64,000 bases of DNA from Anadara kagoshimensis (lineage: Eukaryota > Mollusca > Bivalvia > Arcoida > Arcidae). A program made the position numbers and the translations under genes. Below the pieces are notes generated by a model. The model was not told the DNA's origin. It did not search any database and saw only the letters and a program-made list of their open reading frames with translations. Positions 12,300 through 53,967 of the stretch are shown here, one piece after another (position 1 is the first letter of the stretch; each line of letters opens with the position of its first letter). The stretch lies in NCBI GenBank assembly GCA_021292105.1, contig CM037864.1:6009143-6073142 (forward strand), in the 5' to 3' direction.

Positions 12300-12654
12300 A
12301 CGTAATAGGACGTCATCTGAATGGTTACATTTACGTAATCAGAAATCATTACCTACACCTTACCAATGATCGATTGATTGGAAGCAAAAACTATAGGGTT
12401 TATGTAAAGAATGTCAATTTCAATTAGATTGCCACATGCTTATAAATAATGCTCAAATTTTGTTACACACTAACGTTTTCACAGTTGATATAATAAAGAA
12501 CATAATGAAATATTCTACCTCGATGAATCGCATGCCATGGACACGAGAGTATTTCGACAAGCTAATGACGTCATTTTTTTTTTCAAGCCATGTAATACTA
12601 ATCAGAATTCTCGTAATACCTGGTGAACTGATGAATCTTAATCTTATGTTTCAG
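12300..12654 (+). other. Upstream region of the TRIM-like gene
   Basis: The open frame of the TRIM-like gene extends upstream to 12436, but this 74-codon extension shows no domain and includes runs such as FFFSS. A splice acceptor, TATGTTTCAG, ends at 12654, three bases before the preferred start codon. The extension is therefore read as intron and the 5' UTR exon lies further upstream, unidentified. Confidence 0.55.
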
Positions 12655-12657
12655 AAA

Positions 12658-14331: not shown

Positions 14332-15410
14332 CAGAAACAGGGACAAAATTATAACAACATTCTGTGATCATTTGGGTAATGACATTGTTTATTTGTGACA
14401 GTTCAGTGGGAATGGACTTGGGTAGTTCTGGTAGATTGCTGGTGTGTTATACTGGAAATAACAAAATCCCCATAGTGAAATATGTGTAACAGAAATGGAG
14501 ACAAAGTCATAACAACATTCTGTGACCATTTGGGTAATGACATTGTTTATCTGTATCAGGCCAGTGGGAATGGACTTGGATAGTTCTGGTAGATTGTTGA
14601 AATAACAAAATCCTCATAGTGAAATATGTGTAACAGAAACAGGAACAAAGTTATAACAACATTCTGTGCTCATTTAGGTATTGACATTGTTTATCTGTGA
14701 CAGGCCAGTTGGATTGGACATAGATAGTTCTGGTAGATCGTGGGTGTGTAATACTGGAAATAACAAAATCCTCATAGTGAAATATGTGTAACAGAAACAG
14801 GGACAAAGTTATAACAACATTCTGTGATCATTTAGGTAATGACATTGTTTATCTGTGACAGGCCAGTGGGATTGGACTTGGATAGTTCTGGTAGATTGTT
14901 GAAATAACAAAATCCTCATCATCGTGAAATATGTGTAACAGAAACAGGGACAAAGTTATAACAACATTCTGTCATCATTTGGGTATTGACATTGTTTATC
15001 TGTGACAGGCCAGTGGGATTAGACTTGGATAGTTCTGGTAGATTGTTGAAATAACAAAATCCTCAAAGTGAAATATTTGTAACAGAAACAGGGACAAAGT
15101 TATAACAACATTCTGTGATCATTTAGGTATTGACATTGTTTATCTGACAGACCAGTTGGATTGGACATAGATAGTTCTGGTAGATCGTGGGTGTGTAATA
15201 CTGAAAATAACAAAATCCTCGTTATCGTGAAATATGTGTAACAGAAACGGGGACAAAGTTATAACAACATTCTGTGATCATTTAGATATTGACATTGTTT
15301 ATCTGTACCAATATAAATGGTGAAATTATAATTAAAAAAGATAAAATTGGTAATTTTGAAACAGTAGTGACAGCGGAGAATTATATATCGGGATAAGGGG
15401 AGAATACTGA
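14253..15410 (+). pseudogene. Tandem decayed copies of the 3' end of the TRIM-like gene
   Basis: The last blade codons plus 3' UTR (AATGGACATAGATAGTTCTG through AAATATGTGTAACAG and ATAACAACATTCTGTG) recur about six more times. Copies start near 14411, 14569, 14712, 14871, 15018 and 15160, with spacings of about 142-159 bases. Several copies lack the segment between GGTAGATTG and GAAATAAC. After the last copy, 15303-15410 resembles an earlier part of the coding sequence (AATATAAATGGTGA...ATT, then AATTATATATC..GGATAAGGGG), so a second decayed gene copy may lie there. None is open over a useful length. Confidence 0.85.
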
Positions 15411-29682: not shown

Positions 29683-31050
29683 CACTCACAGGTCAAAAGT
29701 GTTTCCGCACAATGGCCGCCGTTGTTTTTTTTAAAACAACATTTCAAAACTGCTAAGTTGAATATCAGGGAAATAAGAAAACTATGACGATTTCTTACCT
29801 CAGTATTTGGAAATGGATCCATTTGCCCTGAATACTTGACGGATTCTGTTTGGAATAGAGGCATACAATGATCGGATATAAGTTAAACTGATGGAGGCCC
29901 AGATTTCAGTAGCAGCATCAATCAGTTGTTGTCTGTTCCTAATGTGCGCTCTTCTCTGCAGCCTGATTTTCATATGCCTCCAAACATTTTCTATTATATT
30001 TATGTCTGGACTTTGCGCAGGCCATTACATTGTAGGTATAGAGTTTGTCTCTTTGAAATGCATAGTATGCCGAGACCGGTGGGGGGTGGCATTGTCATCT
30101 TGGAATATCCAGGGGCGGTTTTCAAAAACTTTAGCAACAACTGGCCACAGATTTTTGTCCAAGATAGTGGTATACTTTTCTGAATTAATGTTGCCATCTA
30201 CTGCTACAAAGTCCCTACACCATCGAAGGTGATACAACCCCAAAACATTACACTTGTAACTACCTGGGGGGTTCCATAACTGCTTTCATCAAGACAGTAT
30301 GATGACCACTTTTCACATTCTTTGCGCCACACATGACACTTACCACTCTTGCCCAATACAATCTGAGTCTCGTCTGAAAATATAACTCTATTCCAGTAGC
30401 TATTGACAGTTTTATGAAGCTGAGACCGACACCATGCCCTCCTCCTGAAACGGTTAGTCCTCGATATAATAATTTTCTTTTTTACTATCCTTCTTTCGTA
30501 TCCATAAAATGCCAAACGTCTTTTTACAGTTGATTCACTTAATTTTACTGGTGTTGATTCATTATAAGTGTTTGTAATTTCCTTTAAAGTTTTCCTCCAA
30601 TTTGTTTTCACTACTCATAAAATCTGCCTGTCAACTCGGTCATTGTATTTTGTTGGCCTTCCACTTCTACTTTCGTTTTCAACGTAACCTCTTTGTCTGT
30701 ACCGTTTTAGAAATTTTTGAACTGCAGAAGGATTAATTTTCAAGATCTCGGCAATCTTTCGCCCACTGAAACCATCCTCGCTTAAAGTTAAAATAGTTTG
30801 TTTCGTCTCGACTGACAGTTGTTTCCTGCGCTCAGCCATTGTTGCTAGCAAACGACATATAAACAAAAGAGAGATAACTCTAACAAAATTTTATAACCAT
30901 TGATCGCGGAAAAACCATCAGTTATAACCCTGAAAATTTTGCACGCTTCCGTTCGATATTAAAAGCATACTAGTGAAAAGTCAGATGTGAATCGGGTGCG
31001 GAATTTTTTTTTGGCGGCCATTGTGCGGAAACACTTTTGACCTGTGAGTG
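29683..31050 (-). mobile_element. Tc1-type DNA transposon, decayed
   Basis: The 38-base terminal inverted repeats at 29683-29720 and 31013-31050 are perfect mirror images (CACTCACAGGTCAAAAGTGT ... and ... ACACTTTTGACCTGTGAGTG). The element is 1368 bases and is flanked by TA on both sides (29681-29682 and 31051-31052), the Tc1/mariner target duplication. It lies between ROPN1L and HORMAD1 and carries a broken transposase on the minus strand. Confidence 0.96.
29800..30839 (-). pseudogene. Tc1-type transposase, inactivated by two stops and a frameshift
   Basis: The reading begins at MAERRKQLSV. The N-terminal part holds a paired-like helix-turn-helix (SEDGFSGRKIAEILKINPSA, VQKFLKRY). The catalytic DDE region shows all three motifs: VIFSDET, WIFQDDNATPH and SPDINIIENVW, the last giving the E of a D-D-E triad. 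A premature TGA lies at 30615-30617. There is a frameshift between 30204 and 30243, where the frame passes from the FWGCITFDGV segment to the FVAVDGNINS segment. A TAA lies at 30025-30027 just before the third motif. The natural end is a TGA at 29800-29802. The length, about 345 codons, is that expected of the family. The product cannot be made intact from this copy. Confidence 0.95.
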
Positions 31051-31192
31051 TAGTATTGGGAAGGTCCCATCTGGTTTGGCCACTGCTTTTCTGCCTTTTC
31101 TGTCATTTTACCAAAAATGAAAAATGTTTTTTGGAAGTAATTATTAATTATTGGAATTTAAATGTTAAAATTTGTATATTGTGTCTTTTAGA

Positions 31193-34100
31193 TGACTGCA
31201 GCAACAGCACAATTACAAAGACCACAGGAACAAACTGGGAATGTAAGTATTCAGTTGATAAATCCCTTCAAAAAAGTCAATTTGTTGTTTACTTGACATA
31301 ACAAAAAGCATGCTTGAACAGTGTAAGCATCTGATTTGGTTGAATTGCTCTAGTTTACTTGCTTGTTTTTATAAATAATCAATAGCTAAATGACCAATTT
31401 TATGGGCAAACAACATTGACCAGACCCTCTTGAACTTTCATTAGGAATATTGATATTAGAGATTAAAATGTTGTATAATATGGAAAGTGTGCTTGTGTTA
31501 GAATTCACAGGTAAAACATACAAAATGCAATTATTTACTCTTTGAAAATAGTGTTTCCTATGCATAAATGTCCTCATCCGTATATTAAGCCAATAAAGTT
31601 CAATCAGACAGATCAGTGTTGTTTGCTTATAACAAAGTCCTTTACAGCAAGCTTGGTAAGTTGTTTTAATCAGAAGTACATGTATATCCTCGACTGTCCG
31701 TGATTCGAGACTTTAATAGAAAACGAACTAAATTTGCTAACGCAACAAGAATTTGGGAGCTGAAAAATAGACAACTGATTTTTCTGGATAGTTTCACAGT
31801 AAATACCTAAATTTTGTCTTTAATGCATGAAATCGTCACTGCAGAGACGATACTCGCGTATAATAACTGAAAACAAAAATGGCCTCGAATCTTAGGACGC
31901 TCTCGATTTTAGGACGGTCGACGATACATGTACAATGTATTCGCAAATCAACATCATAGTGTACCGGTACTTAAAGTATGGTATACTTTGTGTTGCTACA
32001 GGCTTTTGCCTAAAATGAAATCTTTTTAGAATGAGCAGATCATTCAGCCATAATTTTATAATCTTTTATAAATTAATCAATGAAAGTTGGTTCTTTTTGA
32101 GTGAAGTCTCTTATAATTATAATTCAAAATTTAATTTTAACCAGTTAAATAAATTTTGACTGCACTTATTGACTTAGGTAACTTTAAATATTTTGTTTTT
32201 TAGTGGTCGGCTATTTTTCCAAATGAACAAGTAACAGAAACACAGTCAGCATTATTTGTCAAGAAGCTGTTAGCAGTGTCAGTTTCTAATATTGCCTATC
32301 TTAGAGCAATCTTTCCAGAACATGCCTTTGGAGATAGATGTCTTGAAGGTTGTATCATAGTTATGTCCTTAACAATAGTGCTTACTCCATTTCTTTGCTA
32401 CTTTTCTCAAAAACTATTTAACAGATCATTATGGAATTAACTTCACTGGAACAATCTTTGTTTTGAGTAGATGTGTCACTTGCTATTTATATTTTAGATC
32501 ATATACATGGTTGAGAAAACATGCATTTCCCATATGGCTCAGAAGGAGGACACTTTTGAAATGACATTTTATTTCAACTACAACTTGTTTTATTTCTATT
32601 AATTTTCAGTATTGAAAAAGTTTGTAGAGCTTTTATCTGTATTTGAGTGGTTATATTCTAGCTTTGTAGCAGAATTAATATTTAGTTTTCAATTTGAAAA
32701 TTTTATTTGTTTTTAGACTTGGGATTGAAGATTTTAAGAGATGACAGTTCTTGTCCTGGTGCTTGTCAGGTCATTAAATGGGTGAAAGGCTGTTTTGATG
32801 CATTAGACAAAAAATATGTAAGTATTTTGTGAAATAAATGAATATACAATTCTTTTACCTACCTGTTCACATGCACTTCACTTTTGGAAGAAAATAAAGT
32901 AAGATACAGATATCTCCATCTTGGTCTGTCTTTGGCTGCAATTTCAGGGTTTTTTTCAGCATGACCATCTCATATATTTCCTTCTGTATTGTTCTAAGGG
33001 TTTCTCTTCAGATGTTCCAATAATTTAATCGATTTTAATATATGCAGTATATCACTCAAATCAGGATGCACCAAGTTAACAAAATATCAACTGTTTTCAG
33101 CAATCTGGACATACTATGATATATCACTATTTATAGTTTCATAATTTTAACATTTTTGAATAAGTATGTGAGAACCAGGGCCTTGGAAATTTCGGTCCAG
33201 CCTGTCGGACATTTTTTGTACGTACAAGCAAAAAAAAAAAAAAAAAAAAAAAAAGGTCGTCGGCATAGGGCTGTCTATGCATGCATATTGCACGGATTTT
33301 GTCACTAACCAAATAAATTTTTTGAGAGCTACCGCGATTGCCAATTTTAATCCATGTGCGTTATTAGATCACGATGTTGATTGTGTATTAGGTTAACTCG
33401 AAGACTAGGATGTTTACTGCTTTTCTAAGCTTCCGCAATATTCTGTTATTATCAATTTTCGTTACTATCCACGATGCTTGATACTACACGTCCGCCATAT
33501 TGTTTACTAACAATCGTGAACTTTCGTATTCCGAAGATACACGAATAGTGTAATGTCCGAAAACAAAAAATGTCCGACTGGTGATTTTTCACGTCGGTCA
33601 AAATAAATTTTTGTCGGACATGTCCGGCAAATATGACCGTTTCCGGACCTCTGGTGAGAACTATTAATTTGTCATTTATGTTATTATTTTTATTGGGAAT
33701 TTTGAACAGTCCTGCAGGTTATATTACAGTATAAAAGATATTGAGGATGATAATTGAGCTAACACAATATCTAATGATAATATAATTAATCCCTATCTTC
33801 ATATTGAGCTTTTAGGGGAACAGTGTTTTAGGCAGTCAAATCAGCCTGTTGCCGGTTCCTATGGAAAACACTGGGGGAATAAAGGATTTAAATTCAACTA
33901 GCTAATGATTTGATTATATGAAATATCAAAATGTTTTATAGTTTCTGCACAATGAATTTCAATATTAAATTTTTATTTTCAGTTAAGAATGCTTGTTATA
34001 GGGGTAAGTACAAAGCTACTGTATTTGATTAACAAGTTTTAGACTAACTTAATATCTATAATAACATTGAGATGGTATGGTTTTAAAACTGTTGAAGAGT

Positions 34101-37100
34101 AAGGGTTCCACATATAGAATTTTCTTCGAAAGATATGCTCATCATTTTATGATATGTTGTCATCTACACAACTTTGTAAAAATGTACTTAGTCTGTTAAA
34201 AGATTGATTTCCAGACCATTTGACCAGTAATGATTGTATAAAGAAGGAATTACATACATCACAAACCCTATACAAATCACAAATACTTACTAGTGACAAT
34301 TGAAGTTTGATTAACAAATTCAGGGTTCGATTTTAGCGATATTTACCACTAGCAAAAATTAGCTTGTACAATTTTTATTCACTAGCTAAAATGAAAAATG
34401 ACTAGCTAAAATTTATGAAACAGTTTTAATAGCTCATAATTAACATCCAATTTGTTGGGCCATGTGGGGCACCGTCACTTTCATTGGATTTATCCTTTTT
34501 TTTACTCGGCAATGTTCTGAATATAGATTTCCAGGACTCTTACAAACACGATGCTGTTTTCTGCTGCTTCAAATTTGTATATCGAACTGTAAAGCTAGCT
34601 GCTATTGTCGAGCATAGATGGGAGCACGAACACTTACAGGTGTAATTAGTCAACCTAACGATCATAACTTATACTGCAATTCTCGGTCCACATTCTGATG
34701 ATAAGTAATGTAACTCCTTGTTGGTAGGGACAGTACCCAATCACTTGTGTGTTTACTTTGGCTATCATTCAAATGTTGGTCCGAGTAAATCATAATCGTA
34801 ACTGTAAATAAACTATTTTCTTTTTTGCATAGATGGAAGCACGAACACTTACAGGTGTAATTAGTCAACCTAACGATCATAACTTATACTGCAATTCTCG
34901 GTCCACATTCTGATGATAAGTAATGTAACTCCTTGTTGGTAGGGACAGTACCCAATCACTTGTGTGTTGCTTTGGCTATCATTCAAATGTTGGTCCGAGT
35001 AAATCATAATCGTAACTGTATATAACTTATTTTCTTTTTTGTTCTCTTCGAACACAACAGCGTACTGCTCTTTATTCACCATTTGTATATTTATATATAC
35101 TATATATGAATCCTAATATTGTTTAACTACTGTATTTTGTGTCTTGTAAATGTGTTATTTTGGTGTTTGTATGTTATAATTCATATATTTGTAAAATGTT
35201 ACTTAACATTCTTATATCTCTACATATATAGAGGAAATAAATAAAGAATGAATGAATGAATGTGGGGCACCGTCACTTTCATTGGATTTATCCGCCGGCC
35301 GTTTGAAAAAATTTGTAATGGACTTTTGCGACATTTTTTTTTACTTCTTTATTCACGTGCTACAGTAAAACATGACGGTAATGGGATTTCCACTGGTCTA
35401 TTTTAAACAACAAATCAGAGACGAAGACTAAATTAAGCAGCCAATCGTAGCCACGTGTTCCGGGAAACCTATTATACATTGACGTATATGCCCGAGTAAT
35501 CCAAATTTGTTTACGATAGAGATTCCCAGACAATATGACTTATTTCGGCCGCTTTTCATTTTATTTTTTTTCGTTTTAAATTTCATTTGGAACATACAAT
35601 GTGACAGTTAATTGAAAAGTAGATTGTAAATAATTTAGCTTCTTTTTTTATTCACTCGCTCAACTATGCGAGTGGCTTTTATTTCCACTCGCTATTCGGC
35701 AGATCTACAAGCTATTAGCGAGTATGCGTGCCTAATTTCGAACCCTGAAATTTGAATGGAAGGAAGATAAAACCAAATTGTCTTACTTTGTTTCTATACG
35801 CAGATGCATTTTACAGGTTTTATGTAAACATTTACCATTTAGTGTGTAACAGGAAGGAGAGAAAAATGCAAGGTCAGACAGGGAATCCAACATAGGACCT
35901 ACCAAACTGTAGATGAGTGCTCTACCAACTGAGCTACCCACACTGTTACAACTAGTCAAACCTGCCTTAAAAGGCTAATCTATATTAGGGCCACCTGCTT
36001 TAAAAGGCCAGTAAAATTTTTATCCGAATTGCTCTTAATGTATGTTCTTTAAACCTCTATATAAGGGCCTCCTGTCCATTTTACTTTTACTGGTTCCCTT
36101 TGATGACCTTTAAAGACAGGTTTGACTGTAAATACACATGGAAGCCTTTCTGCTGTGTCTTTTAAGACTTACAAAATAGACTTACAGATTCACCCAGTCA
36201 CACATGTTTTATATTTTTAGATATATGTAGACCCAGATGATCCAGATGTAAGTATATGAACCATCTCAAACATTTTATCTGAAAAGAGAAATGTTGTTTA
36301 AAATATGGACATTTAAACAGGAAATAAAAACATGTCTAATAATGCCTCATGCACGCTGTTTAATAAGATAATAATAAAATCCATTTTAGATCTGTTTTGA
36401 ATGTTAACTCTATAAAACTTAGTTTGCATAACCTTTACATGTGTTTATAAATGGAGTTTATTAAGTAAAACTGGAGGTCTACAAATTTGGATATCACCTA
36501 AATAGGTCTAGAAACTTAAGTTTTTCTGAAAGTTTGAAATTGATTTATGAAATAAAAATATGCACTTGTTTTTGAAACAGGCCTGTTGTTTGTTAGAATT
36601 TAATACCATTTTCTGTGACTTTTACTAAAAGCTTAAAACACAAGAACATTAAAATGGTTATTCTCATTTCAGACTGTGATAGAATCCTACACATTTAAAT
36701 TCTCATACAACAATCAAGGAGGCATGGATATATACAGGTATTTTTATTTCTTTACGTTTAATAATACTCATTTTCTTTTATTTTCTGTATTGATTTTGTT
36801 TTGCACAAGCATTTTTTAATGTTATAATATTTTGACCACAGTAGGTGCCAGGAAGATTAAACAATGGTGATTTATTGAGTTCAAAATTTGCCTCCTTGCC
36901 TCACATGTGTCTAGAGTGACAATTCTCTTGCCGACAGGCTGGCTTTTTATATTCTACAATGATTTAATGCTTAAAACATAATTTTGAAATTGCTGTTTTG
37001 TCAGTGAAAAAAATTTCTTCAAATTACACCAAACTTAAAAGTCAAACCCATTTCAAAGTCAGAAAGTGTAAAGTTTTTTAAATATTCTGCAAAATATATG

Positions 37101-40100
37101 TAGCATGGGTTTATATTTTATATATATTTCTTGTTTAATTTCAGAAATGACAAGAAAGTTTCCAGTGCCTATTCTGAAGCAGAAACAAAGAAAGCCACAA
37201 TAAGATTACTACGTACCATTGTAGTATTAACTCAGAATTTAGATTCTTTACCTGATGATGTTATGATGACCATGAAACTCTTGTACTATGACGATGGTTT
37301 GTATTATGTTAACTTATAAAGATAAACTCTATTTGATAACCTCTAACAAGATAACAAGTTTTGAGTAAAGGGGAGTGGAGTAATAGTGTATTATACATGT
37401 AACACTTCAGTCAAGATTTTTCACTTATATCGAGGTGGTCATGTTTTGATTGATGGAGAAACCTGAGTAGCTGGAGATAACTATCAACCTTTGGCAAAAA
37501 ACTGAAAAAACTTTCTCACATTGGAATTTGTCCCAAGTGTGATTTGAACTAAAGTGTTGAGAAGCAGTGTGATTTGCAAGATGGTGTTTTACACCACTCA
37601 GCCACCAAGGCTCTTCAAACAATAGAACATGACGTGGAAACATAAGTATAGGTGTTTATACATGGAAACATCAGTAGTTTTTAATGCTAGGATTGCATAG
37701 GTTTAACATTTAGAATTCTTAAAGTTGCCATCAGTTGATTGAGTAGAAGCATGTTAGGAAAACTTAAACAATTTAAAAAACTGATCACAAAGATTTTATC
37801 TTTATATTGTGTACACTGATATACAGTCTTGTTCGAGGTAAATCGGTAATTAGTGTAGGATATATTTTTCAATTGACATAATGGCAATAATTTAAACTTT
37901 GAGAGATATTTACTTGGTAAAATTTTAGTATGACACATATAATTGATAACATATTGTTTGATTTGTTTAGTTACACCAGCAGATTATGAACCACCAGGCT
38001 TTAAGGCTGCTGATTCTGGCTCGTTTCAGTTTGAAGAAGAACCTATGAACATTAAGATTGGTGATGTTTCTACAGTAAGTATCATTGATAGACCTTTCAA
38101 GCATGAAAGAGTGAAGAAATTGATTTTTGCACAAAATCAAATTTTTTTTCACTTATATTGAGACCAACATTTCAACAATGGTGAAGAAAAACAGAGTACC
38201 CAGAAAAAAACCACCAACTTGGGCAAATAAACTGACAAACTTTCTCACATTAGGAGCTGTCCCTTGTGCATGTTGTGGGATTCGAACCTAAATGATCTGT
38301 AATTCCACACTTGGCTTCATAACTCACAACTTACATGGTCCTCCTCTATCTCTAATGTCAAATTCTTCTTGCCAATCACCTGTTTCAGAAGTAGTTTCTG
38401 TCAAGTCTGCCACTTTTAACAATTATTTGTCTGGTCGAACCCCTTATGAAATGGATAATTTGACAAATCCAGTCATGCAGACTTTCCAACCATGCGTTTG
38501 AATTGGAAATGACCATCATAATCTTGTAATTTCTGAATTTTTTGTCTAGAACATTCTATTCAGTTGTTTATAGGAGAGCAAAACGTCTTTCTTATAATTT
38601 CAAATTTGTTTATGAAAATGGACTCGCAAAGTGGTTACAGGTTTAAGAAATATAACATTTGTATACATTTAATAAGGTAGATAGAAACTATGCATGCAGG
38701 AAATTGTTTCCTATATGATTGTGCTAAAAGAATGTATTTTAAATTACGGTAATTACCTGCTAATGCCTTGTGTGTGGTTTTTTGGTTACATAGTCTTATG
38801 TCAATGGATAATGGGAGGTGATATTTTAATAAGGGATACTTTTTCCATGGATGTATTAACTCCTGAATTAATTCACAATATACAATATATTTGATATTTT
38901 GATTTTATTAGCCATTTCACACGTAAGTATATAGTTTTGATCTGTTGTTGTTTTTAAAAGTTACATTGTTATAAATTTAACAAAAGTTATGAAAAATTCC
39001 CAACTTCCATTTTAACTATAATATAATACAATGTACTAAATTAACCTTTCTAAACTTGTCTGCAGTTGTAGTGGTGAATAAGAAAATCATTTTCAGTTAC
39101 CTTAACATTGTTTTGATGCTGTTTTAAATTAGAAATTCTTGAGTAAACTATTGTGATCAGTCTGTCTTCCTTCTGGTACCAACAGTCCATTGTAAATACT
39201 CTAGAGACAACAATTTTTGTGCAATATTAAACTTTTCCAGAGTAATTCTCGTGACAAAAGCTAGGTCAAGTGTGTATATGGGTCATGTCGGGCCAATAAG
39301 TCAGTAACTACCGGTAGGTCAAATCATGGAAAACCTTGTTAACAGTCAAGAAGCCAAATACTTGACCAATCTGCATCTAACTTCCCCAGAATTATGGCCA
39401 GTTCGATACTTTGAAACAAAACATCAGTAGGATATTAGATATTGTCACCCTTCAAAGAAATTTCTCGCATAGATTGGTTAACTTGCCTGGGTACATGGAA
39501 CTATGTTCGGAAATCTAGCAGGATACATAAACACAGGCAACATTTAGCAGTAACAGGGAAGTAACTCTTACATTGCGGACGTCTAGTTATGGTAAACAAA
39601 CATGGCGACAAAGTCACACAAAATACGAAGTTAAAAAGATCAAACCAGTATGGGTTTGAAGGGTGATAAAAACGCCTGCAACTCAAGGTACATAAATTTT
39701 TGACAGGGTACATGGGGCCATATAACCTGCCAAAACCCTGTATAACGTATACTGTTTATCTTTTAGAGGTGACATAATTCCAAATTTGAGCTAAATCGTA
39801 ATGCATGGCCTCATTTGTTTATTTGATTAATCCTTTCCCTTTGTTGATTACGTTAATTTGTCTATAAAGCATGCTTTATTGTTATATTTAAAAATTGTTA
39901 CCAGTTCTCTATTGGGAGATGAAAACATGAATAAATTAATTGATTTTATTTTAATTTTTTTGCAATGTTTTATGTGATTTCTGAAATACTCTGTTAGCAC
40001 ATATTATTTATGTTATTAGCTTTTCTTTTTTGAAAAGAAAAATGAGTTTAAAAACTAATGAAATGTTGGCAGAGATGTAACTAGTAAAGATTTTAATCGG

Positions 40101-43100: not shown

Positions 43101-44492
43101 TATTTTTTTTAACTAAATTTGACCAATAAAGTCTTTGAAATACATAAATAATAAATTAATTAAGGTAAGTACGAGTCTTTCTTTAAAGTTGTCACTCGTA
43201 ACAGAATAGCCGTCGGCAAAGAAGTAAAAACCTGGTCACCTGTAATTAAATTTAATCAAGTCTTCCCGGTAAGACCTCGGGTGTGTCTTGTTTTTTTAAT
43301 GATTGAAGCCATTCTCGATTTCTTCTTCAATGATATAATCGTCCATAATTACCGGTACCTATTATTATATGTTGAAGAAGAAAGCGCCGCCATTACAAAC
43401 AATAATTATATATTCCTATGCATATGCCAGAGGTAATACGGCGCTTTCGTATCAGCCAGTTTTGAGTAAAAGGTGTCAGGGTTCGACAATCGCTTATCGG
43501 GATATTAATAAAATTTATTAAAATTTAATTTGCAATTCCAACGACATGTTTAGATTTCAAAGTTGAAATGTAACAAAATAATGAATACGAATATTCTTTC
43601 ACAAAAGTTCAAACAACCGGAGGACTTCCATTGTCGGTGACAACAAAATGTGTATTACCCGATCTCATGACCGGGAGTCAAAAAGTACATGCTTTATTCA
43701 AGCAATCTTCATCGTTTGTATCCACTATTCATACATGTAAAAATAATATCTACATACATGTTTACTTTACATCAGCTATTTGGACAATATTTATTAAAAA
43801 GAAAATAATAAATAACACAGACTTTTCTACGTATCTATTCGGGCGACGTATATACGGAAGTGGACGCGAAATTAAATATGCACCTGGACTGTTGACGCGA
43901 ATGCACGTATTCGCGAAATGAAGCTCAGTGTTAAGTACGCGAAATTTGATACTCGCGATATTAAAGTAATCTACAGTAAAGGATCAACAGCCCCTTTCTA
44001 GAATGAACACTGCCATATGATCCCATAGTTTTTGATTTATTTGTAAATGATTTATCTATTTATCACAGCCAGAACAACTAGAAAGTACCTGTCCCCCATA
44101 AAATCACCTGTTTTTGTAGTTTATAAATTAAATTTGATAATTTAGACAATTTTAGTCCTTTTAAATGTTATTATGGCCCACTTGTCATTCATTTAACAAA
44201 CAACAGTATGACAAAATTTCTAACTATCTGCCTGTTCATAATTTTTTTTAACTTTTTAGTAATTCAATATCTTTTATTTTTTAAATGTTAATTTTGTTCA
44301 TATAAAAATAAATGTTTTATTTTTCCAAAAAATATCTGAGGTTACTTTCCATGGTACCCATGCCACATTTCATGTTAGTACCTTGAGGAAATTATTTGGA
44401 TCTCTTTTTATGTATTTACTCTATTTATCATCACTAACCTGCTCAACATACTGTGTCCCAACTCTAACTTATTTCTTTGTAGAATATCTGAT

Positions 44493-44539
<47 letters not shown>

Positions 44540-44702
44540 TTATCATCTCTAACCTGTTAGACATTTTGTAACCTGCTCAACATACTGTGTCCCAGCTCTA
44601 ACTTATTTCTCTGTAGAATTTCTGATTTATTTATTTATTTATTTATAAACTGCTGACATATTCTGTCCCAGTTCTAACTTATTTCTCTGAACAATTTCTG
44701 AT

Positions 44703-44733
<31 letters not shown>

Positions 44734-44816
44734 TTATCATCTCTAACCTGCTAGACATTTTGTAACCTGCTCAACATACTGTGTCCCAGCTCAAACTTTT
44801 TTCTCTGTAGAATTTC

Positions 44817-44867
<51 letters not shown>

Positions 44868-44945
44868 TTATCATCTCTAACCTGCTAGACATTTTGTAAC
44901 CTACATACTGTGTCCCAGCTCAAACTTTTTTCTCTGTAGAATTTC

Positions 44946-44996
<51 letters not shown>

Positions 44997-47900
44997 TTAT
45001 TATTTTTTTTTAATGTAGGTCCTATTTATTTATTCGTGTTAAGGTCCTAAAGTATCTCCATCAACAAACACATGTCATATGATGTGTGCCAGATGAGGAT
45101 GCCTGTTGCAAAAAAAAATTGATAAATACAGTACAGACCTGTACAAAGTTTAGCATCCAGCTAGAAAGAATTAGTGCCGACAGCCCATATTGGTCCCTCG
45201 TTTGGTGTTTATAAATATCGACAGCAGTTGCCATCTATCTCTCGGCAGCTTTTCGACCGCTACCTTTCCATACCTTAGGCACTCGGCAGTCGAGCTTTGA
45301 CTTCTTTTGGTTAGCTTAGTGTTAAACTTTCGACAGGTCTGTACTGTACATTGCGTGTACTGTGTATACAGTAGACAGTTGACCTATATATTTGACACGG
45401 GGAACGTTGTTTACGTCATTACGTTGGAACAATGCTTATCAAGGTCGCGGCCATATTTGTTTTCATTGACAACAAGACGTACTGAAATCATGCTGTTGGA
45501 TTTTTGCGATTTTCGCATATTTAACCCTCATGCACCAGGTACGATAATTTACTGGCGTAAACTATAATAATTTTCTGGCATTGTATTAAAATTTCTAGGA
45601 AAAGTATTCTTTACACAAAAAACGTACCAGTTTCAAAAATGGAGAAGAAATTTTTGTTGATTTTCAAGAGAAATCGGTTATCGTCGGGATATCAGTAATT
45701 TTAAGTAAATGTGGCATTTTATCTAGGACTTTTTGATACATGTAGAAAGTTTAGTTATTCCTCACACGCTTGCATCATATTCGTAGCTAGAAATGTTAAT
45801 TTTATGGTATAAAAACGATTCTGAAAATGGCGAATTTTTTGGGGGTTCAGACACTTGCCAGAAAGTAATCCCTTTTTATTTACCGCGGAAGGTCTCAAAT
45901 TTTAAAACCAACGCACAATTTGGACTTGGCTATCCTACTGAGTATGTTTCATTAAGCTACCTATCTATACTTTATTTTGTAGCGTGCTCACTTCTTATGT
46001 GGGATTTCATAGGTTCGAATTCTGTCCGGATCCGACCAAGCCTTGAAAATTGGTAGTGACTGTTCTTTCACCAAGCACTTGGGTCCTTCAGAAGAGAACT
46101 TTAAAACCGATTCCCCGTGTCATTTTAGGTATGGCACATTAAAGAACACTTCCTGCACATTGGGCCTTGTAATGCAAAGGTGAAAACTTTTGTCACTTCA
46201 TATATAGCTGGTGACATTTTGATATAAGTAAAATATTCTTAACTGGAATGTACAACCCCATTCAATAATCATTCAATCAATCAATTTATTTTGCATTTTC
46301 TTACATTTTAGTGTGAAGATGAGAATAAGAACAGACCGTAAACAGTTTGAGGTTAGAGAGGATAATGTAGAAGGTGAAGATATAAAACAGCCAGACCAAG
46401 TCAGTGATCAACATGAAGATGGAAAGATGGAAACAGATCAGGTTTGTATGGAAGATTAAAAGTGTGCACTATTTCAGGAAATCTCTGAAAATATAAAACA
46501 CCGAATCCCACTGTATAAATGCCGAAAAGGAATTCCTTATGTTCCCCTTATATTAACGGACAATGTGATTGAAAGAAAAGAAATAGAACAATATTTCATT
46601 GGGGCCTTATGCCAAAATAGTTTTGCATAATTGATTAATCTTCAATTGTTATGATGTCATAGTATTGTCTTATTGTCTAAATGACATCAGTACTTGTTAC
46701 TCTGTTTGTTACTATGTTTATTGTCTAAAAAAAAGTAATGCTTTACGAAATCATGTTGAACCTCATTTAAAAATATTGTCAAAATCAAAGAGTACATGGA
46801 AAAGAGTTTCATTGTTTTACATGTATTGATATTGTAGGAAGAAATGAATGAAGAAAATATGAAAGGTGTTAATAATAATAATTTTAATGAAGAAAATATT
46901 GAGAATGAACCACCAATTAAGGAAAAACCAAAAAGAAATCCCTCAGATGTTGCTATTCCAACAGAAAGCCCAGCAAAGCCAGGTATAATAATCTAGATAG
47001 ATCAAATTCACAATGTTTTCGCTTAATGCAGAGTAAATTTTCTAGAATTATTGAATACAATTTTAATTTGGTGTCAATAATACTTATTGATAATCACAGG
47101 AAAATAAATGCAATTACCACAGATCCAAAACAATGAATTGTGGCATATATACCTATGTATATACATGTATATATATTGTTTTATTTATTTTGCATTGATG
47201 TTTTAGCCAGGAAGTAAGTGGATTTAATGAAATGTTGGTTTATTATCTTGTTCTGCTGTCACTGTCTTTTACTATACAGTAGAACTTCGATAACTCGTGC
47301 ACGGGACTTCGATAATGACTTCTAGTTATCGGGGTGTTTGAGTTTTCGAAGTTGAAGAATGACATCACAATATAGACTCATTTCTATGAGAGAAATGTTG
47401 GATGGCGATAAACTGTTTACTGATACACCAGTGTAATATGTATGCATAACATAACACTAGTAAATGAATTAAAATGAATTTATTATGTTTTTATAAAGAT
47501 ATGATGACGACAACAAACGCATGCATTAAAAACACAAAATGTTTATTACTAACACATTATCACAATACATTCAAAGAACTGAATTGGATAAACATATCCA
47601 TGTACCTTGTATGTAATAATAATAATAATACATGTACGTAACATAAGACGCGCGTTTTATAGAAATAATTAAATTATTGTGTGTACCATGTGTAAGTCAT
47701 TAAAATCCAGTTTGGATAAATCATTTGCCATTATTGCCAGCGGCACAAAACTTGACCACTACTATGGGAGTACACGGTTACACTCCATTGCCCTTTACGA
47801 GATGGAGTACTAATCCCAGGGATTTATCAGGGTCTTTTGGGAAAAGGCCCTAAACTAAAAATTGGGAAAAACTTCAACTTTTTGCTCATTTTGGGAAAAC

Positions 47901-50900
47901 TTTGACATCATTTTTGTGCCATTAATGATTAAATCTAATGCTTTTAGTGTATTGAGTTGATTGAAGATTGAGAAAAGCAGCCACATTTATGACCAGACTT
48001 CAGCTATGTATCTGGTACAATTTTCTAATTGGGAATTTTCTCAGCCCATTTTGGGAAAAAATCAATGTTTTTCCATTGGGAATGGGGCCGAATTTCGGCC
48101 CTAAATAGGCCCTTGATAAATCCCTGAATTAATTGATACTAATTAATACAGTAGCAGTACCTTTGATCTGTACAACTACTACTCTCATTAAACGGATTAT
48201 ACACAAGCCTATAGCTGATTACCGATTAACTCCTGTGATTTCACTGATCGTTCTGTTGATCACCTACTCAATGTTAAAAATATTTCGAGTTTTAGAAGGT
48301 TGTTTGTCATACAATTTATTATTTTGCATCTTAACATTACTTCATGTTATCGGGGTTATTCGAATTATAGGAGTTTGAGTTATCAAAGTTGTATTTATAT
48401 AGTTTGTATAGAAAACCAGTCGGGACAAAATACTGACTTTGAGTTATATGTGGTATTCGAGATATCGAAGTTCTACTGTAACCATATTTTTCATAAAACT
48501 TGTACGGTTTTGATAAATGTTTTATTAAGAGGTCTAGACATGCTTTGATGAGGGTTAATTTACTATCTATTAAAATTGCATACATGTCTACCAACAATGA
48601 TACTTTATTATACAGGTTGTAATGATAATGCAGTGGATACTACAGGATCACAGAAGAGTCAGGTATCAACAGCTGAACAAGAAGATTTTGGTGTGAGATG
48701 TCCATGTGGATGTAATGAGGTAGGTGCATGTATATAAAAAACCAATCATACCTAGCCATGTTCAAAACCACAATCCCAAAGCAAAGTCAAAACTTTGAAA
48801 CTTGCAACTTGGGTTAAACACATGAACTTGCACCAGGAAAACGAGATGGAGTGCTCCAGAAGGGAAAGCACTCTCTGTTTAGCTAGCTTCAACTGGCATG
48901 TGTGTAATCAAAATTTTGAATGAAAGGAACATGGAACTATGAAACATCAAATATATCAAATAATGTTAGATATAGAAACATTATACTTATCAACAATATT
49001 GTGACGGCCATGAAACTTTAGGTCCTTGATATGCCTAGGCCTTGGGTCCACAATAAACCTAGGCCTGCAATTTCCTTGTAGCAACAATTTATTTATGAGC
49101 AGCTTGATTTGTTGTATAAAGTTCTCGTAGTTTGATATTGATATTTTACAATTAGCAAATGCCATTAACTTGTACTTTCAGTTGGTGAATATGACTAACT
49201 ATATCTAAGGAATCACTTTCTGTCAGTTTGCTTGTCCATCTGTGTATTCATTTAGACACTTCCAAGGATTTATCTTCATGTATATTTCATCGACTCTTCT
49301 AGCTTAGTGTTGATGGTCTGTAAATTGGTCAGTCCATTTGTCTTCCTGTTCTCTGGAATTTTGAAAAATGAGGGTTTGGCAGTATTAGTTCTAACTTATT
49401 TTTCATAAAAATTAAGTGTCTTTTCAGAATCTTGAGTGTCTTTGCCATGAAGCATATTTCATAATTTGATCTATGATTCTGTCTTTAATTGTCAGTAATT
49501 ATTTTTTGTAGGATGATGGTTTGATGATATTGTGTGCTATATGTAAATACTGGCAGCATGGTATTTGTTTCTTGATTCAGTCAGAGGATGAAGCACCTAC
49601 TCATCATGTTTGTGATGTTTGTGCTGTGGTAAGATCATGGTTTTCAATGTTTACAATCGTAGGCTGACGTAATTACCAATAATGTCACCAGTATGCTTTC
49701 ATGGATTTATTAGAATTTATTTCAAAACATTTTAACAAATTAAAACAATTCTGAAAATGTTAATTTGACATTTATTTCATTATAAGAAGAGAAGAACCGA
49801 AGTTTTTTTTAGTGTTGATTGCTAAATTTCTTGATTTATTATTAAATTTTGATCTACCCATATTGGAATTTAGATCAGATATTTCTATTTTATCCTATAC
49901 AAGAATGTTAATAAGTTTTTATCCTTAATGATGTAAGAATAGCTTAATTGTTCTTTGATATTTAAATCAAGACTTGAATAATAATAAAAATTTGTGGAAA
50001 TTATATTGGGAAGCACACCAGCTTATGATGTTCAAGACTCATAAATACAAGTATATAAATATTGTATGTACTGTAGATTTACTTTTATTTCGTGAGAGAT
50101 TTATTTTGGCGTAAATTCGCGACTCATTCCATTCGCGAATTCAAATATCACGTGAATATTTCCAGCACACAGGTTTTCTATGTTGCCATACATATGTTTT
50201 ATTCAATAAGATTCCAAACGTGAATTCAAATTTTCGCGAATAAGGCCAAGATGGTCTCGACGTGAATTCTTCTACTCGTAAGTAAGTGATCTACAGTATT
50301 AGATTTCTGTTTAAAATTTGCAAGACTAGTGGGGCATTATTTGATTTACCGTGAAGAGTACCATGACAATTTCATATTTACTAAGTACATTATAGATTAA
50401 CATTCAGAAGAAGGGGAAAAAGAAACAATTATAGAGAGTAACATTTATTTGGAACACAAAATAGTTTTATCATCATGCTTTGTTCAGAATCTTAAGAATT
50501 GGGACACTAAAATGCATTTATATTTATTCTTTAATTTCAGCCAGGTGAGCAGGATAAACATCCTACTGATACATACTTATGTAACTTATCCTCAATAGCA
50601 GTTCAGGTAAGTACTTGTACTTGATCTCTGTTTGTCTCATAAAAAACACACAAGATTAAAAATTTAATGGGGATTTTAATTTAAAATAAAAAAAAATTTC
50701 AATAATAAAAAACTTAACCATTGATAGTAAATTTCAAAATGTGACATTTTAACTTGCTTTAAGATAAAAATTATTACAAATTCTTTGTAATAGTAATTAG
50801 GTTTAGTAAAACAACAGTAGCAGCTGACTTCAAATAGTGGAGGCTTTGATGGCCAAGTGATCTAAAGCGCATATTTACAGATCACAGCACTTCTTGCCAC

Positions 50901-53900
50901 CTATATGCTCAAACCCTACTCTGGACAGATTCGAGTGTGCTAAACTTTGTTAGTTTACTTTCTAAAGGATGGTGGTTTCATCCAGGCACTTTGGTTTCAT
51001 CTGCCATCCCTGTGTTAATCACTGATATAAGTAAAAAATAAAATTCACCTTAATCCACCTTTCAATACCATGAAAGATTTAATCATTTTTGTCATGTATT
51101 CTGCTCTGTTCAGTATGACTTTTTTTACCTTTGATGATCCTCTATCTAAATAATAATGTTTGAAATGAAACTATTTTAGGCAACATGCTTATGGAGGAGA
51201 GCTTTGTTAGCTGTTTCCGAAATGAACAGAGTTTTGGCACCAAACTTAGCAAAAAGATTGGGAATTGAGATTACTGTGGCACAAGGTGTGATAAATCGAC
51301 TAGAAAAGGAAGGATTCATCAAAAATCAAGGGAAAGGAAAAAGGTAGTTAATCAAGTTTCATATAATGCAGATTCAGGCACATGTATTAGGCTCTAAACA
51401 TAAATATTTAATACCAGGACCATAATTAATAATGATGAATTACAAATGAAAAAAAGGTTAAAGTTAACTTTCAAATATGGGAACCAAGGTATAGTGGAAC
51501 CTGTTTGAACTGAATCCTGAGTAAACTAGATTAACAATTTAGGACACACTATTAATATTGATTAGTCGGTTAACTTGTGTAAACAGAATACCCATCTTAT
51601 TGGAACAAAATCTTTGGTTCTTTTATCTGCTTTTCATTGTAACATGGTCAAGATGTCTTAATTAAGGACAAAAACAATACCCTGTCTTCTCATATCTTTT
51701 ATATTGCTATTAACATGATCAATATGATTAAAGGCAGTTATCCAAAATCGGATAACTTAGTAATTTAATTATATATCAAATATTAATAAATTATTCTAAT
51801 CATGTCTTGATCTGAAGTTAGTGTCTATTGAAAATATAAAATAGAATTTAAACTTTTTCTGTAGGCTTGGTAAAATTGTAGACAAAGATAAAATTAAGAA
51901 GTGTGGTTTTGACAAGTATTTGAAGAGAAGTCAAGTCCCTGTTGAACAGAAGAAATCAGAAGATGAGAAAAATGAAGTAACTATGCAGGTTTGTTTATTC
52001 TATTATGATATCATTGTATAGAGACTTCTAGCTCTTTTGAGACCAGCACTGTATTTGTCACCATTTCCAGCCTATCTTTTATTTCTTTATCAAGGAATAT
52101 TTTCCATGTCTCTTTTGGTTTGCCTTTTTACCTCTTGCCTGGTAGTGTACATTGCATTGCTACCCTTGAGATTGGTTCAGGACCTATCTTGCAAATTTGC
52201 ATTTCCATATCTTCTTGCTTGAAATGGAGGCATGGTGTTTGTTCTCTCATAGACTTGACTAAAGAAAAATCGACATCTAAAAGGATCATCAACTTCTGTT
52301 TAAGGTTTATGTTGATGGACTAAATAGTAATATAGGTATTGGTTAAAGTGTTTTGATGAGTACGTGAGCTATCCTCTGACAACTATATTTGTTAGAATAA
52401 AAATTTCATTTCATTTTCATTAAGGAAGAAGAAACGGAGAAAGAACCTAATATGCCAAAAGAGGAAATATCTAACAAGGTAATAATACTGTGTGGTGTAT
52501 TTGAGCAATTTAAATATAAAGTGAAAGTGAAATTCTCAAGTACAGGAACTACTCAGTTGGTAGTGTGCTCTGAATGACCCTGTAAATGACAGGTTGACAT
52601 TCCAGCCCTGTCTTGGTCTGATCAAAACTTTTAAGCTCTTTTGCCAAGCCCTCAGTATTTGAAAATGGTCTTTGGAAGATACCTTAAAATTGCTCCTTGC
52701 TCATTATCCTGAGTGCACTGCAAAAGTAAAACATTTGGTCACTTAACTATAGCTGGTAATTTTCATATATAATTAAAATATTTACTTGGATGTAAACTCT
52801 CTTTCTTAATCTAATAAGACATGAAGATGAACACCACCCCCTTGAAATCTTTTGAATCGCAATATCCCAACATTAACTATTTTGTCACATGCCTTCTTAA
52901 ACATCTTCATTGATTTACCATTGTTGAAATATTGCTTATATTATACATTGATATTTATGACTGTTTTTGTTGGTTTAGATTTCAGAAATAACAACAATGA
53001 CAAATGATATGATGCTTTCCAAGAGTAGGAAGAAGAAAAGATTACATGATACAGTCAACAAAATTAATGAGGTAAGATTACTTTGTTAAATTGTTACTGG
53101 TTCTTTTATAATAGCAATTAATCTTTGTAACAATAATTAAAATGTTTGTGGAGTTTTCAATACTAATTTCTAATTTTTTTAGCCAATGTAACAGTTGTTC
53201 ACCATAGCATGTCATAGTAACTTAGTAAGTTTCTGCATCAAGCATTTTATTTATAGATTTTAATGGACTAGGTGTGCATGTGGGCCAACAGCTCTTGCTT
53301 TGTTCAATTTTCTGGCAGGCACAATTATATTAGTTAAATTTGTTACTTTGGCTGTAAAGAAGTACATGTGTACAAGCCTTTCGTTTACGAATTTTTTTTT
53401 GTTTTTCGTTGATTTATGTCCATAGGTGGATGTGTCATTGCTTTGTCCGTTCTTTTTATAAAGGTCAGACATAGTCCAAGAATTACTGCTAGGGAAAAGA
53501 AAGAAGAATTAAAAAGAGGAAAAAAGAGGGCATTTTCTAAAGTGGACCAGGTAAGAACTAAATGGTAATATAATAACCATGATAAAGATACTATAATGAT
53601 GTTTGCAGATCATTTTGATTTTTACCAGCTTAGTTTTAACACAAGATCATAAATGAATTGAATCGTGAATTCAGATCCTGGCAAGGATTTCCATTATCAA
53701 ACATCTTGGTTGAGTGTAAAAACCACCTCTCATTCCACTCTGTTCCATGAAATTTTAATGCAATTTGAGTTGTATTTACATGTTAAACAATCTGCTAACA
53801 ATACATTTACATTGCCAAAATTATGCCTTTTATGTGAGAGAATTTAACAATATTTTCTCTTTCAGGGTTGTGAGTTTGATATTGCAGATAGCCAAGATGT

Positions 53901-53967
53901 TATTGATGAGTCTAGTGGTTTGACAAGGAAAAAAGCCAGTATTGTGTCAAAGGCCATCAGAGTATGA
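31193..53967 (+). CDS. HORMAD1: HORMA domain protein HORMAD1 with C-terminal PHD and winged-helix region, 20 exons
   Basis: Coding exons: 31193-31243, 32204-32348, 32717-32817, 33983-34003, 36221-36247, 36673-36737, 37145-37296, 37971-38074, 38912-38922, 46312-46441, 46838-46982, 48616-48719, 49512-49628, 50541-50606, 51180-51343, 51865-51988, 52425-52478, 52979-53071, 53464-53550, 53866-53967. All borders are GT/AG and phases join to 620 residues plus stop. The N-terminus ([10 protein letters not shown]) and residues about 20-235 form the HORMA domain ([44 protein letters not shown]). It is the meiotic axis factor that guides synapsis checkpoint and crossover control, binding partners by the HORMA safety belt. 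Residues 269-340 are acidic and disordered. Residues 346-391 form a PHD finger, about 395-475 a winged helix, and the rest a basic tail ([19 protein letters not shown]). A shorter 394-residue form is known in humans. The upstream acceptor CTTTTAG implies a 5' UTR exon. Confidence 0.94.
33176..33653. mobile_element. Non-autonomous hAT transposon with 8-bp target duplication
   Basis: A 478-base element in HORMAD1 intron 3. It is flanked by the perfect 8-base direct repeat GTGAGAAC at 33168-33175 and 33654-33661, the hAT-type duplication size. Its ends, CAGGGCCTTGGAAATTTC and the reverse complement of the other end, CAGAGGTCCGGAAACGG, are imperfect inverted repeats starting CAG, as in hAT. Inside there is an A run of 24 and the words TGTCGGACAT / ATGTCCGACA mirrored near each end. 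No transposase frame. Confidence 0.9.
33983..34003 (+). other. HORMAD1: HORMAD1 exon 4, 21-base microexon
   Basis: It encodes LRMLVIG in phase 0, between TTTTCAG and GTAAGT. It matches the LRMVVLA strand of the vertebrate HORMA domain. The next exon (27 bases, 36221-36247, IYVDPDDPD) continues the same strand. Confidence 0.9.
34496..35260 (+). mobile_element. LINE-like retroposon insertion with a 33-bp target duplication
   Basis: The 33-base segment at 34463-34495 (TGTGGGGCACCGTCACTTTC ...) recurs exactly at 35261-35293, on either side of 765 bases of unrelated sequence. The inserted DNA ends GGAAATAAATAAAG, then (GAAT)n, i.e. a poly(A) signal and a microsatellite tail, as in 3' ends of non-LTR retrotransposons. 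It contains a tandem duplication of 215 bases (34613-34827 and 34828-35040). It shows no reverse-transcriptase frame, so it is a 5'-truncated copy or a passenger. Confidence 0.75.
34613..35045. repeat. 215-bp two-copy tandem duplication
   Basis: Both copies read CATAGATGGGAGCACGAACA (or GGAAGC) and then ACAGGTGTAATTAGTC, to GTAAATCATAATCGTAACTG and CTATTTTCTTTTTTG. They differ at only a few sites, so the duplication is recent. Confidence 0.9.
35848..35945 (-). mobile_element. tRNA-like SINE head
   Basis: A minus-strand A box TAGCTCAGTTGG (35937-35926) is followed by AGAGCACTCATC, a degenerate B box and the tail TTTCTCTCCTTCCTGTTAC. It is related to the copy at 20622-20726. A copy of the ACAGGTTTGACTGTA family follows at 35945-36130. 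HORMAD1 intron 4. Confidence 0.7.
37375..37625 (-). mobile_element. SINE with Leu/Ser-type tRNA-like head
   Basis: On the minus strand, GAGCCTTGGTGGCTGAGTGG is followed by a degenerate B box and AATTCCAATGTGAGAAAG. The plus-strand left end (ACTTCAGTCAAGATTTTTCA, CTTATATCGAGG) is the shared SINE tail. HORMAD1 intron 7, just after exon 7. Confidence 0.7.
38140..38310 (-). mobile_element. SINE fragment with perfect B box
   Basis: GGTTCGAATCC on the minus strand (38288-38278), CTAATGTGAGAAAG, and the tail CTCAATATAAGTG. The head beyond the B box is missing or unclear. HORMAD1 intron 8. Confidence 0.65.
38912..38922 (+). other. HORMAD1: HORMAD1 exon 9, 11-base microexon
   Basis: The eleven bases CCATTTCACAC lie between TTTTATTAG and GTAAGTAT. 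Spliced in, they encode PFH plus two bases of T and restore the frame between exon 8 (ending GDVST) and exon 10 ([10 protein letters not shown]). The vertebrate protein has PFHIFKVKV at this place, which supports the exon. Confidence 0.85.
38930..42840. other. HORMAD1: HORMAD1 intron 9, left part
   Basis: No coding exon seen. At 39440-39755 there is a reverse-orientation copy of the family at 28134-28440, ending ACATGGGGCCATATAACCTG, then CCAAAACCCTGTATAA. Near 40130-40220 there is a SINE-like piece (GATTCAAACCTTGTGAG). A block near 40700-40780 (TTTACACAAAAAACGTACTA, GTTTCAAATGTCG) resembles one at 45610-45650. Confidence 0.5.
42847..43976. mobile_element. 1.13-kb non-autonomous DNA transposon (CTGTAGATTACTTT ends)
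   Basis: The ends CTGTAGATTACTTT-TT-TATCGCGAG and its mirror (CTCGCGATATTAAAGTAATC, then TACAG) match over 25 bases with two differences and are flanked by TA. Subterminal regions are rich in CGCGAA/TTCGCG words. No transposase was found, so it is a non-autonomous element of a TA-targeting family. A shorter relative lies at 50071-50296. HORMAD1 intron 9. Confidence 0.85.
44428..45010. repeat. Compound repeat: (TTTA)n blocks spaced by a ~75-bp unique unit
   Basis: Five blocks of TTTA (about 44486-44540, 44624-44645, 44699-44733, 44819-44869, 44948-44999) are separated by copies of a segment reading CTCTAACCTGCTAGACATTT, TGTAACCTGCTCAACATACT, GTGTCCCAGCTC and TTTTTTCTCTGTAGAATTTC. The period varies because block lengths vary. 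HORMAD1 intron 9. Confidence 0.92.
45129..45346. mobile_element. 218-bp MITE (CAGTACAGACCTGT ends)
   Basis: CAGTACAGACCTGTACAAAG at the left end is mirrored by CTTTCGACAGGTCTGTACTG at the right end, with TA on both flanks. No coding frame. HORMAD1 intron 9. Confidence 0.85.
45960..46265 (+). mobile_element. SINE, tRNA-derived
   Basis: The B box GGTTCGAATTC (46012-46022) is followed by the body CACTTGGGTCCTTCAGAAG and GGCACATTAAAGAACAC. The tail reads TGATATAAGTAAAATATTCT, then TAACTGG. It shares body and tail with the SINEs at 11.57 and 52.5 kb. It ends about 45 bases before HORMAD1 exon 10. Confidence 0.75.
47277..48478. mobile_element. 1.2-kb pogo/Tigger-like non-autonomous element
   Basis: The ends CAGTAGAACTTCGATAACTC and the mirror GAGATATCGAAGTTCTACTG differ at one base and are flanked by TA at both sides. 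The CAGTAGAAC...CGATAA style resembles pogo/Tigger-type ends. The frames inside (about 80 codons) show no transposase motif. A second element is nested at 47817-48126. HORMAD1 intron 11. Confidence 0.85.
47817..48126. mobile_element. Nested MITE (CAGGGATTTATCAGGG ends)
   Basis: CAGGGATTTATCAGGG and its mirror CCCTTGATAAATCCCTG bound about 310 bases containing several TTTTGGGAAAA words. Further inside, TTTTGGGAAAAGGCCCTA mirrors GGCCGAATTTCGGCCC only loosely. The CAGGG start is hAT-like, but the 8-base flanks do not match. Confidence 0.75.
48616..49628 (+). other. HORMAD1: HORMAD1 exons 12-13: PHD finger
   Basis: Exon 12 ends [10 protein letters not shown] and exon 13 begins [20 protein letters not shown]. 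The eight zinc ligands C346, C348, C360, C363, H368, C371, C386 and C389 give the C4-H-C3 order. W366 is two residues before the histidine, as in PHD fingers. The intron between them (48720-49511) splits the finger. The known family precedent is the PHD of the Hop1-type chromatin-binding region. Histone binding is not shown by sequence alone. Confidence 0.88.
48745..48960 (+). repeat. Dispersed repeat family copy, near full length
   Basis: The copy runs CCATGTTCAAAACCACAATC, CCAAAGCAAAGTCAAAACTT, GTTAAACACATGAACTTGCA, GTGCTCCAGAAGGGAAAGC, TTTAGCTAGCTTCAACTGGC, then TGTAATCAAAATTTTGAATG to GAACATGGAAC. It is the reverse of the copy at 15815-16025 and lies just after HORMAD1 exon 12. Confidence 0.75.
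50071..50296. mobile_element. 226-bp MITE, short relative of the 42.85-kb element
   Basis: The left end CTGTAGATTTACTTTTATTT, then CGTGAGAGATTTATT, and the right end GTAAGTGATCTACAG are flanked by TA. ATTCGCGAATTCAAATATCA is shared almost exactly with 42910-42930. HORMAD1 intron 13. Confidence 0.8.
50541..51988 (+). other. HORMAD1: HORMAD1 exons 14-16: winged-helix region
   Basis: Spliced, the segment reads through [20 protein letters not shown], then [20 protein letters not shown] and [20 protein letters not shown]. Helix-turn-helix ([22 protein letters not shown]) followed by a basic wing (KNQGKGKR) is the classic winged-helix order. It directly follows the PHD finger, as in the Hop1-type chromatin-binding region. 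Confidence 0.8.
50838..51060 (+). mobile_element. Degenerate SINE
   Basis: GAGGCTTTGATGGCCAAGTG is a Leu/Ser-type tRNA-like head. CAGATCACAGCACTTCTTGC and GACAGATTCGAGTGTG follow in the order of the 20.9-kb SINE, and ATATAAGTAAAAAAT is the tail. HORMAD1 intron 14. Confidence 0.65.
52530..52800 (+). mobile_element. SINE, tRNA-derived, degenerate
   Basis: The head GGAACTACTCAGTTGGTAGT is A-box-like. The body (GGTCTGATCAAAACTTTTAA) and a GGTCACTTAACTATAGCTGG segment match the 45.96-kb copy. It ends ATATTTACTTGGATGTAAAC. HORMAD1 intron 17. Confidence 0.65.

Follow-up and report, generated by a model that had tools for sequence, protein, structure and literature searches.

The 64-kb window analysed here, a stretch of 64,000 nucleotides (nt) from contig CM037864.1 of the bivalve Anadara kagoshimensis, contains on its (+) strand a gene of the HORMAD family, whose HORMA domain attaches its members to the meiotic chromosome axis. 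Exons were joined on the genomic sequence by reading frame and splice signals, and the 20 exons thus assembled between positions 31192 and 53967 encode a protein of 620 amino acids (aa) that ends in TGA and contains no internal stops. A first-pass annotation of the same DNA had given this length, and its interval (48616-53967) corresponds to exons 12-20 of the gene. GT follows the donor and AG precedes the acceptor at 19 of 19 internal junctions, with consistent phases throughout. The predicted protein comprises a HORMA domain (aa 32-225), an acidic linker, a PHD finger (aa 344-391), a winged helix (approximately aa 414-489) and a Lys/Arg-rich tail. Almost certainly the gene is an unremarkable Hop1/HORMAD orthologue of a bivalve, coding for a meiotic axis protein with the widespread region of PHD finger and winged helix-turn-helix (PHD-wHTH) predicted to grip nucleosomes.

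The assignment of the N-terminal part to the meiotic HORMADs, already made in the first-pass annotation, is borne out by the Pfam HORMA match (aa 32-225, E 5.7e-65) and by the best match overall among Protein Data Bank (PDB) entries, human HORMAD1 (8J69, 394 aa; E 1.8e-79). The gene may be a HORMAD1 in the strict sense or may stand for the single forerunner of the vertebrate HORMAD1 and HORMAD2, and the database names of the relatives use both. The match to 8J69 is significant only at aa 4-276, a second stretch at aa 484-565 having a negative score, so that the HORMA domain is common to the two proteins and the PHD-winged helix module is absent from the human one, as had been claimed. The module was recognized in Pfam as PHD_5 (aa 344-389, E 3e-06), while neither the general PHD model nor the several winged-helix models with matches within aa 418-469 reached their cut-offs. 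The C4HC3 finger noticed earlier is complete: its eight zinc ligands (C346, C348, C360, C363, H368, C371, C386 and C389, in two sites, C-C-H-C and C-C-C-C) are identical in all 28 aligned proteins. When the protein was compared with the PDB by phmmer, the closest solved structures across this region were the HORMAD/Hop1 chromatin-binding regions of the sea star Patiria miniata (9MYP, aa 344-489, E 1.7e-59, far beyond chance) and of Schistosoma mansoni (9MUG, aa 342-480, E 6.2e-32). The reach of the 9MYP alignment to aa 489 agrees with the winged helix that had been proposed to follow the PHD finger, and the kinship claimed with Hop1-type proteins is upheld both by these homologies and by the literature (PMC10907721). 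The fold itself was modelled for a Mytilus relative in place of the Anadara protein; the best structural matches of that model were again 9MYP and 9MUG, which answers in part the structural comparison suggested at the outset.

Conservation of individual residues was assessed in an alignment of 28 rows, consisting of this protein and 27 of 120 listed relatives, hand-picked to span phyla. A lysine-binding pocket would be marked by tryptophan at position I, methionine or leucine at II, a small hydrophobic residue at III and an acidic one at IV. W366 (position I) is present in 27 of 28 rows, with leucine in the horseshoe crab, and M357 (position II) likewise in 27, with leucine in Bolinopsis; D354 and D353, which sit at the likely position IV, are kept in 27 and 25 rows, respectively. 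On the winged helix R453 occurs in 27 rows (lysine in Nematostella), position 468 is arginine or lysine in 26 and position 471 lysine or arginine in 26. Residues W376, R463 and R477, which are among those mutated in the sea star protein, placed via the 9MYP phmmer alignment and residue spacing, correspond to W366, R453 and R468 and are unchanged. Identity to the named bivalves amounts to 63-74% over the PHD-winged helix region versus 49-63% over the whole protein, which fits a region under constraint. The HORMAD of the horseshoe crab Tachypleus tridentatus (P0109) keeps the zinc ligands and has leucine in place of the pocket tryptophan; to judge from this substitution, its lineage may have changed or lost the histone-tail pocket.

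A whole-protein search with a limit of E <= 0.001 found 321 relatives. Of the 120 listed, 111, counted by eye, carry both HORMA (PF02301) and PHD_5 (PF20826); because similarity to a module-bearing protein set the order of the list, this proportion is not the share of animals with the module. Among the listed carriers are molluscs, the annelids Lamellibrachia and Owenia, the nemertean Lineus, Lingula and the crustaceans Amphibalanus and Oratosquilla, and, outside the protostomes, echinoderms, Saccoglossus, Branchiostoma, cnidarians and the sponges Ephydatia and Sycon. The search of mollusc and annelid HORMADs that had been recommended thus finds the same architecture in both groups. In the alignment the zinc ligands are also present in two of the nine other listed relatives, the ctenophore Bolinopsis (P0112), which clears the general PHD cut-off, and the horseshoe crab (P0109), which has sub-threshold PHD matches only; among the rest, P0060 and P0114 match the aa 340-490 region and P0080 has a general PHD match. 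Five further proteins of 356-392 aa (P0121, P0122, P0123, P0124 and P0126), from sources that include two Patella species, Elysia marginata and Ptychodera flava, have PF20826 without HORMA and may be partial gene models or genuine short forms. In a tree of 25 rows the Anadara protein groups with those of Mytilus, Pinctada, two scallops and Crassostrea (support 87/93, the fork not being starred), so that a place among pteriomorph bivalves is likely, though not firm. The HORMAD1-like proteins of Mytilus, scallops and oysters (538-615 aa, 51-63% overall identity) resemble it in length and architecture and differ from it by ordinary divergence only.

The first-pass annotation had regarded the module as a remnant that persisted in this lineage and was lost in vertebrates. 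The loss, in Vertebrata and in chromadorean nematodes, stands as a reconstruction by Milano et al. 2024 (Fig. 9C legend, PMC10907721). Persistence, in contrast, is not peculiar to the lineage, since the module is widespread and its occurrence is in print: 36 of 149 meiotic HORMADs, from Opisthokonta outside the Saccharomycetaceae and including Metazoa, have PHD and wHTH with no clear HTH-C, and the animal PHD-wHTH and the yeast Hop1 region are considered to derive from the same opisthokont module (PMC10907721). A search with aa 340-490 alone at E <= 1 gave 72 matches among 365 candidates, none of them named as vertebrate, some rows being nameless. It requires shared exact words and missed known carriers, among them those of Hydra (P0076), Sycon (P0097), Strongylocentrotus (P0054) and a barnacle (P0089), and therefore decides little; it is consistent with vertebrate loss and adds little to it, the claim resting on Milano et al. 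(PMC10907721).

The animal regions have also been studied biochemically. The two solved structures, from P. miniata and S. mansoni, are the work of Rodriguez et al. 2025, who also described bipartite nucleosome binding; both regions bind DNA with a dissociation constant of 16 uM each, arginine mutants lose this binding, and the P. miniata region binds nucleosomes, less so after the substitution W376A or R480A (PMC12365614). The module in animal HORMADs has thus already been described, crystallised and tested by others, and the present gene is an ordinary example of it. It shares HORMA, PHD and wHTH with the P. miniata protein, from which it differs by one extra residue before the basic patch of the wing, and the same PHD-wHTH arrangement with the S. 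mansoni Hop1, whose sequence is more diverged (PMC12365614). A scallop HORMAD1-like transcript increases as the testis matures (PMC3774672), a pattern consistent with a meiotic role of the bivalve relatives.

By analogy with these systems, the HORMA domain would fold around closure motifs of axis-core proteins and of the HORMADs' own C-termini and so load the protein onto the axis. The PHD finger could hold the histone H3 tail, possibly trimethylated at lysine 4 (H3K4me3), in the W366/M357 pocket, and the winged helix would bind DNA via R453, R468 and K471, the two together gripping nucleosomes by H3 tail and DNA, respectively. Such a grip might place or stabilise the axis protein, and hence double-strand breaks, on particular chromatin, and we infer that the bivalve protein has the same activity in gonads. 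Binding is expected in the animal mode, by canonical wHTH-DNA contact together with the PHD finger, and not in that of Saccharomyces cerevisiae Hop1, because the module is of the PHD-wHTH type (PMC12365614).

Several observations weigh against the reading of the gene as an ordinary nucleosome-gripping HORMAD. The gene is known here from genomic sequence alone, PHD_5 barely clears its cut-off (27.7 bits versus 27), and the structural model is that of the Mytilus relative and of modest confidence (mean predicted local distance difference test score, pLDDT, 62; predicted template modelling score, pTM, 0.37). Sea star R480 is replaced by K471. The sea star region has about equal affinity for nucleosomes with an H3K4me3 analogue and for unmodified ones, and binding to histone-tail peptides was undetected (PMC12365614).

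These last two results, the lack of a clear H3K4me3 preference and of detected peptide binding, make the H3K4me3-reader step weak. It is accordingly doubtful, and offered only tentatively, that the bivalve region reads H3K4me3 promoter-type chromatin and steers meiotic breaks by a route that vertebrates dropped as other targeting took over. Were it true, the novelty would be confined to the bivalve case and the connection with vertebrate loss, as H3K4me3 targeting of breaks by such regions has already been proposed (PMC12365614). The undetected histone-peptide binding of two animal regions (PMC12365614) could also be taken to favour a budding-yeast mode, in which a composite PHD/wHTH surface engages nucleosomal DNA that is bent and no pocket receives a histone tail, and the domain order, HORMA followed by PHD-wHTH, and the distant homology to the yeast region (PMC10907721) speak for it as well. 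We nevertheless consider this unlikely: the W366/M357 pocket and the canonical basic residues of the wHTH are conserved here, whereas S. cerevisiae Hop1 has a poorly conserved lysine pocket, an HTH-C extension and non-canonical DNA binding (PMC10907721, PMC12365614), and two animal regions bind DNA canonically (PMC12365614).

That the module is functionless in this species and retained structurally only is very improbable. The leucine of the horseshoe crab demonstrates that the pocket does change in animals, but in Anadara the zinc ligands, the pocket tryptophan and methionine and the basic wHTH residues are all present, and the region exceeds the whole protein in its identity to other bivalves. 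An artefact, whether a HORMAD1-like gene wrongly joined to a neighbouring PHD gene or a recent fusion, might be suspected of an exon join made from reading and splice signals across the 7.4-kb intron 9 with its tandem repeats. It was rejected as exceedingly improbable; the phases agree over the 20 exons, as the first-pass annotation had argued, and relatives in many phyla have the same domain order and are co-linear with the protein. On the preferred reading, the gene is a further bivalve example of the animal meiotic HORMADs with the widespread PHD-wHTH form; mouse and C. elegans, both without the region (PMC10907721), are not representative of animals. Bivalves could also serve in asking whether the region steers meiotic breaks in animals, a question already posed for sea stars (PMC12365614).

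Table 1 Exons of the Anadara kagoshimensis HORMAD gene and the parts of the predicted protein that they encode (coordinates are positions in the window)
Exons	Position	Strand	Encoded part	Evidence
1-9	31192-31242, 32204-32348, 32717-32817, 33983-34003, 36221-36247, 36673-36737, 37145-37296, 37971-38074, 38912-38922	+	N-terminus and HORMA domain, aa 1-225	gene model, Pfam HORMA, 8J69
10-11	46312-46441, 46838-46982	+	end of HORMA region and acidic, poorly conserved linker, aa 226-317	gene model, alignment
12-13	48616-48719, 49512-49628	+	PHD finger, zinc ligands aa 346-389, pocket M357 and W366	PHD_5, 9MYP/9MUG, conservation
14	50541-50606	+	PHD-winged helix linker, aa 392-413	gene model, alignment, within 9MYP match
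15-16	51180-51343, 51865-51988	+	winged helix-turn-helix, ~aa 414-489, predicted DNA contacts R453, R468, K471	9MYP match to aa 489, sub-cut-off winged-helix Pfam, conservation
17-20	52425-52478, 52979-53071, 53464-53550, 53866-53967	+	Lys/Arg-rich low-complexity tail and conserved C-terminal segment	gene model, alignment

Exon 9 is a microexon of 11 nt flanked by introns of 837 and 7389 nt. It codes for P-F-H and contributes the first two bases of the T codon in STPFHTVK, and is supported by this conserved motif, which it completes. For exon 6 a donor one base earlier was rejected as it gives stops; the donor at 36737 keeps the frame open. The ATG lies directly 3' of an AG acceptor-like site, and an untranslated first exon may therefore lie further upstream. 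At 44491-45009 intron 9 contains arrays of TTTA/TTAT as well as a unit of approximately 129 nt that is duplicated.

Past aa 489 conservation is poor up to the C-terminal segment, and the Mytilus-relative model is mostly of low confidence there, except for one short helix (no HTH-C profile was run). The tail described as basic in the first-pass annotation is indeed Lys/Arg-rich, but only moderately basic, with a net charge of +5 over aa 481-620 and +6 over aa 560-620. Its end is formed by a conserved segment, SQ...(K/R)KAS...I.V, absent from that account, in which Q597 is invariant and S612 near-invariant among the aligned proteins; the last 53 residues had no match in the PDB at E up to 10. 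On the strength of what is described in PMC10907721, the segment is likely to be a putative closure motif.

No tRNA genes were detected in the window by ARAGORN (bacterial settings). In the 5' flank of the gene a fragment of a Tc1/mariner-like transposase (30204-30614, (-) strand; Pfam HTH_Tnp_Tc3_2, E 3e-08) was found; in the surrounding interval 30000-31100 a search for inverted repeats of 18 nt or longer detected none. Further upstream, an open frame of 644 aa (12397-14331, (+) strand) with matches to B-box zinc finger and NHL repeat is TRIM-like, and a tandem array of ~150-nt units (14236-15306) begins over its 3' end.
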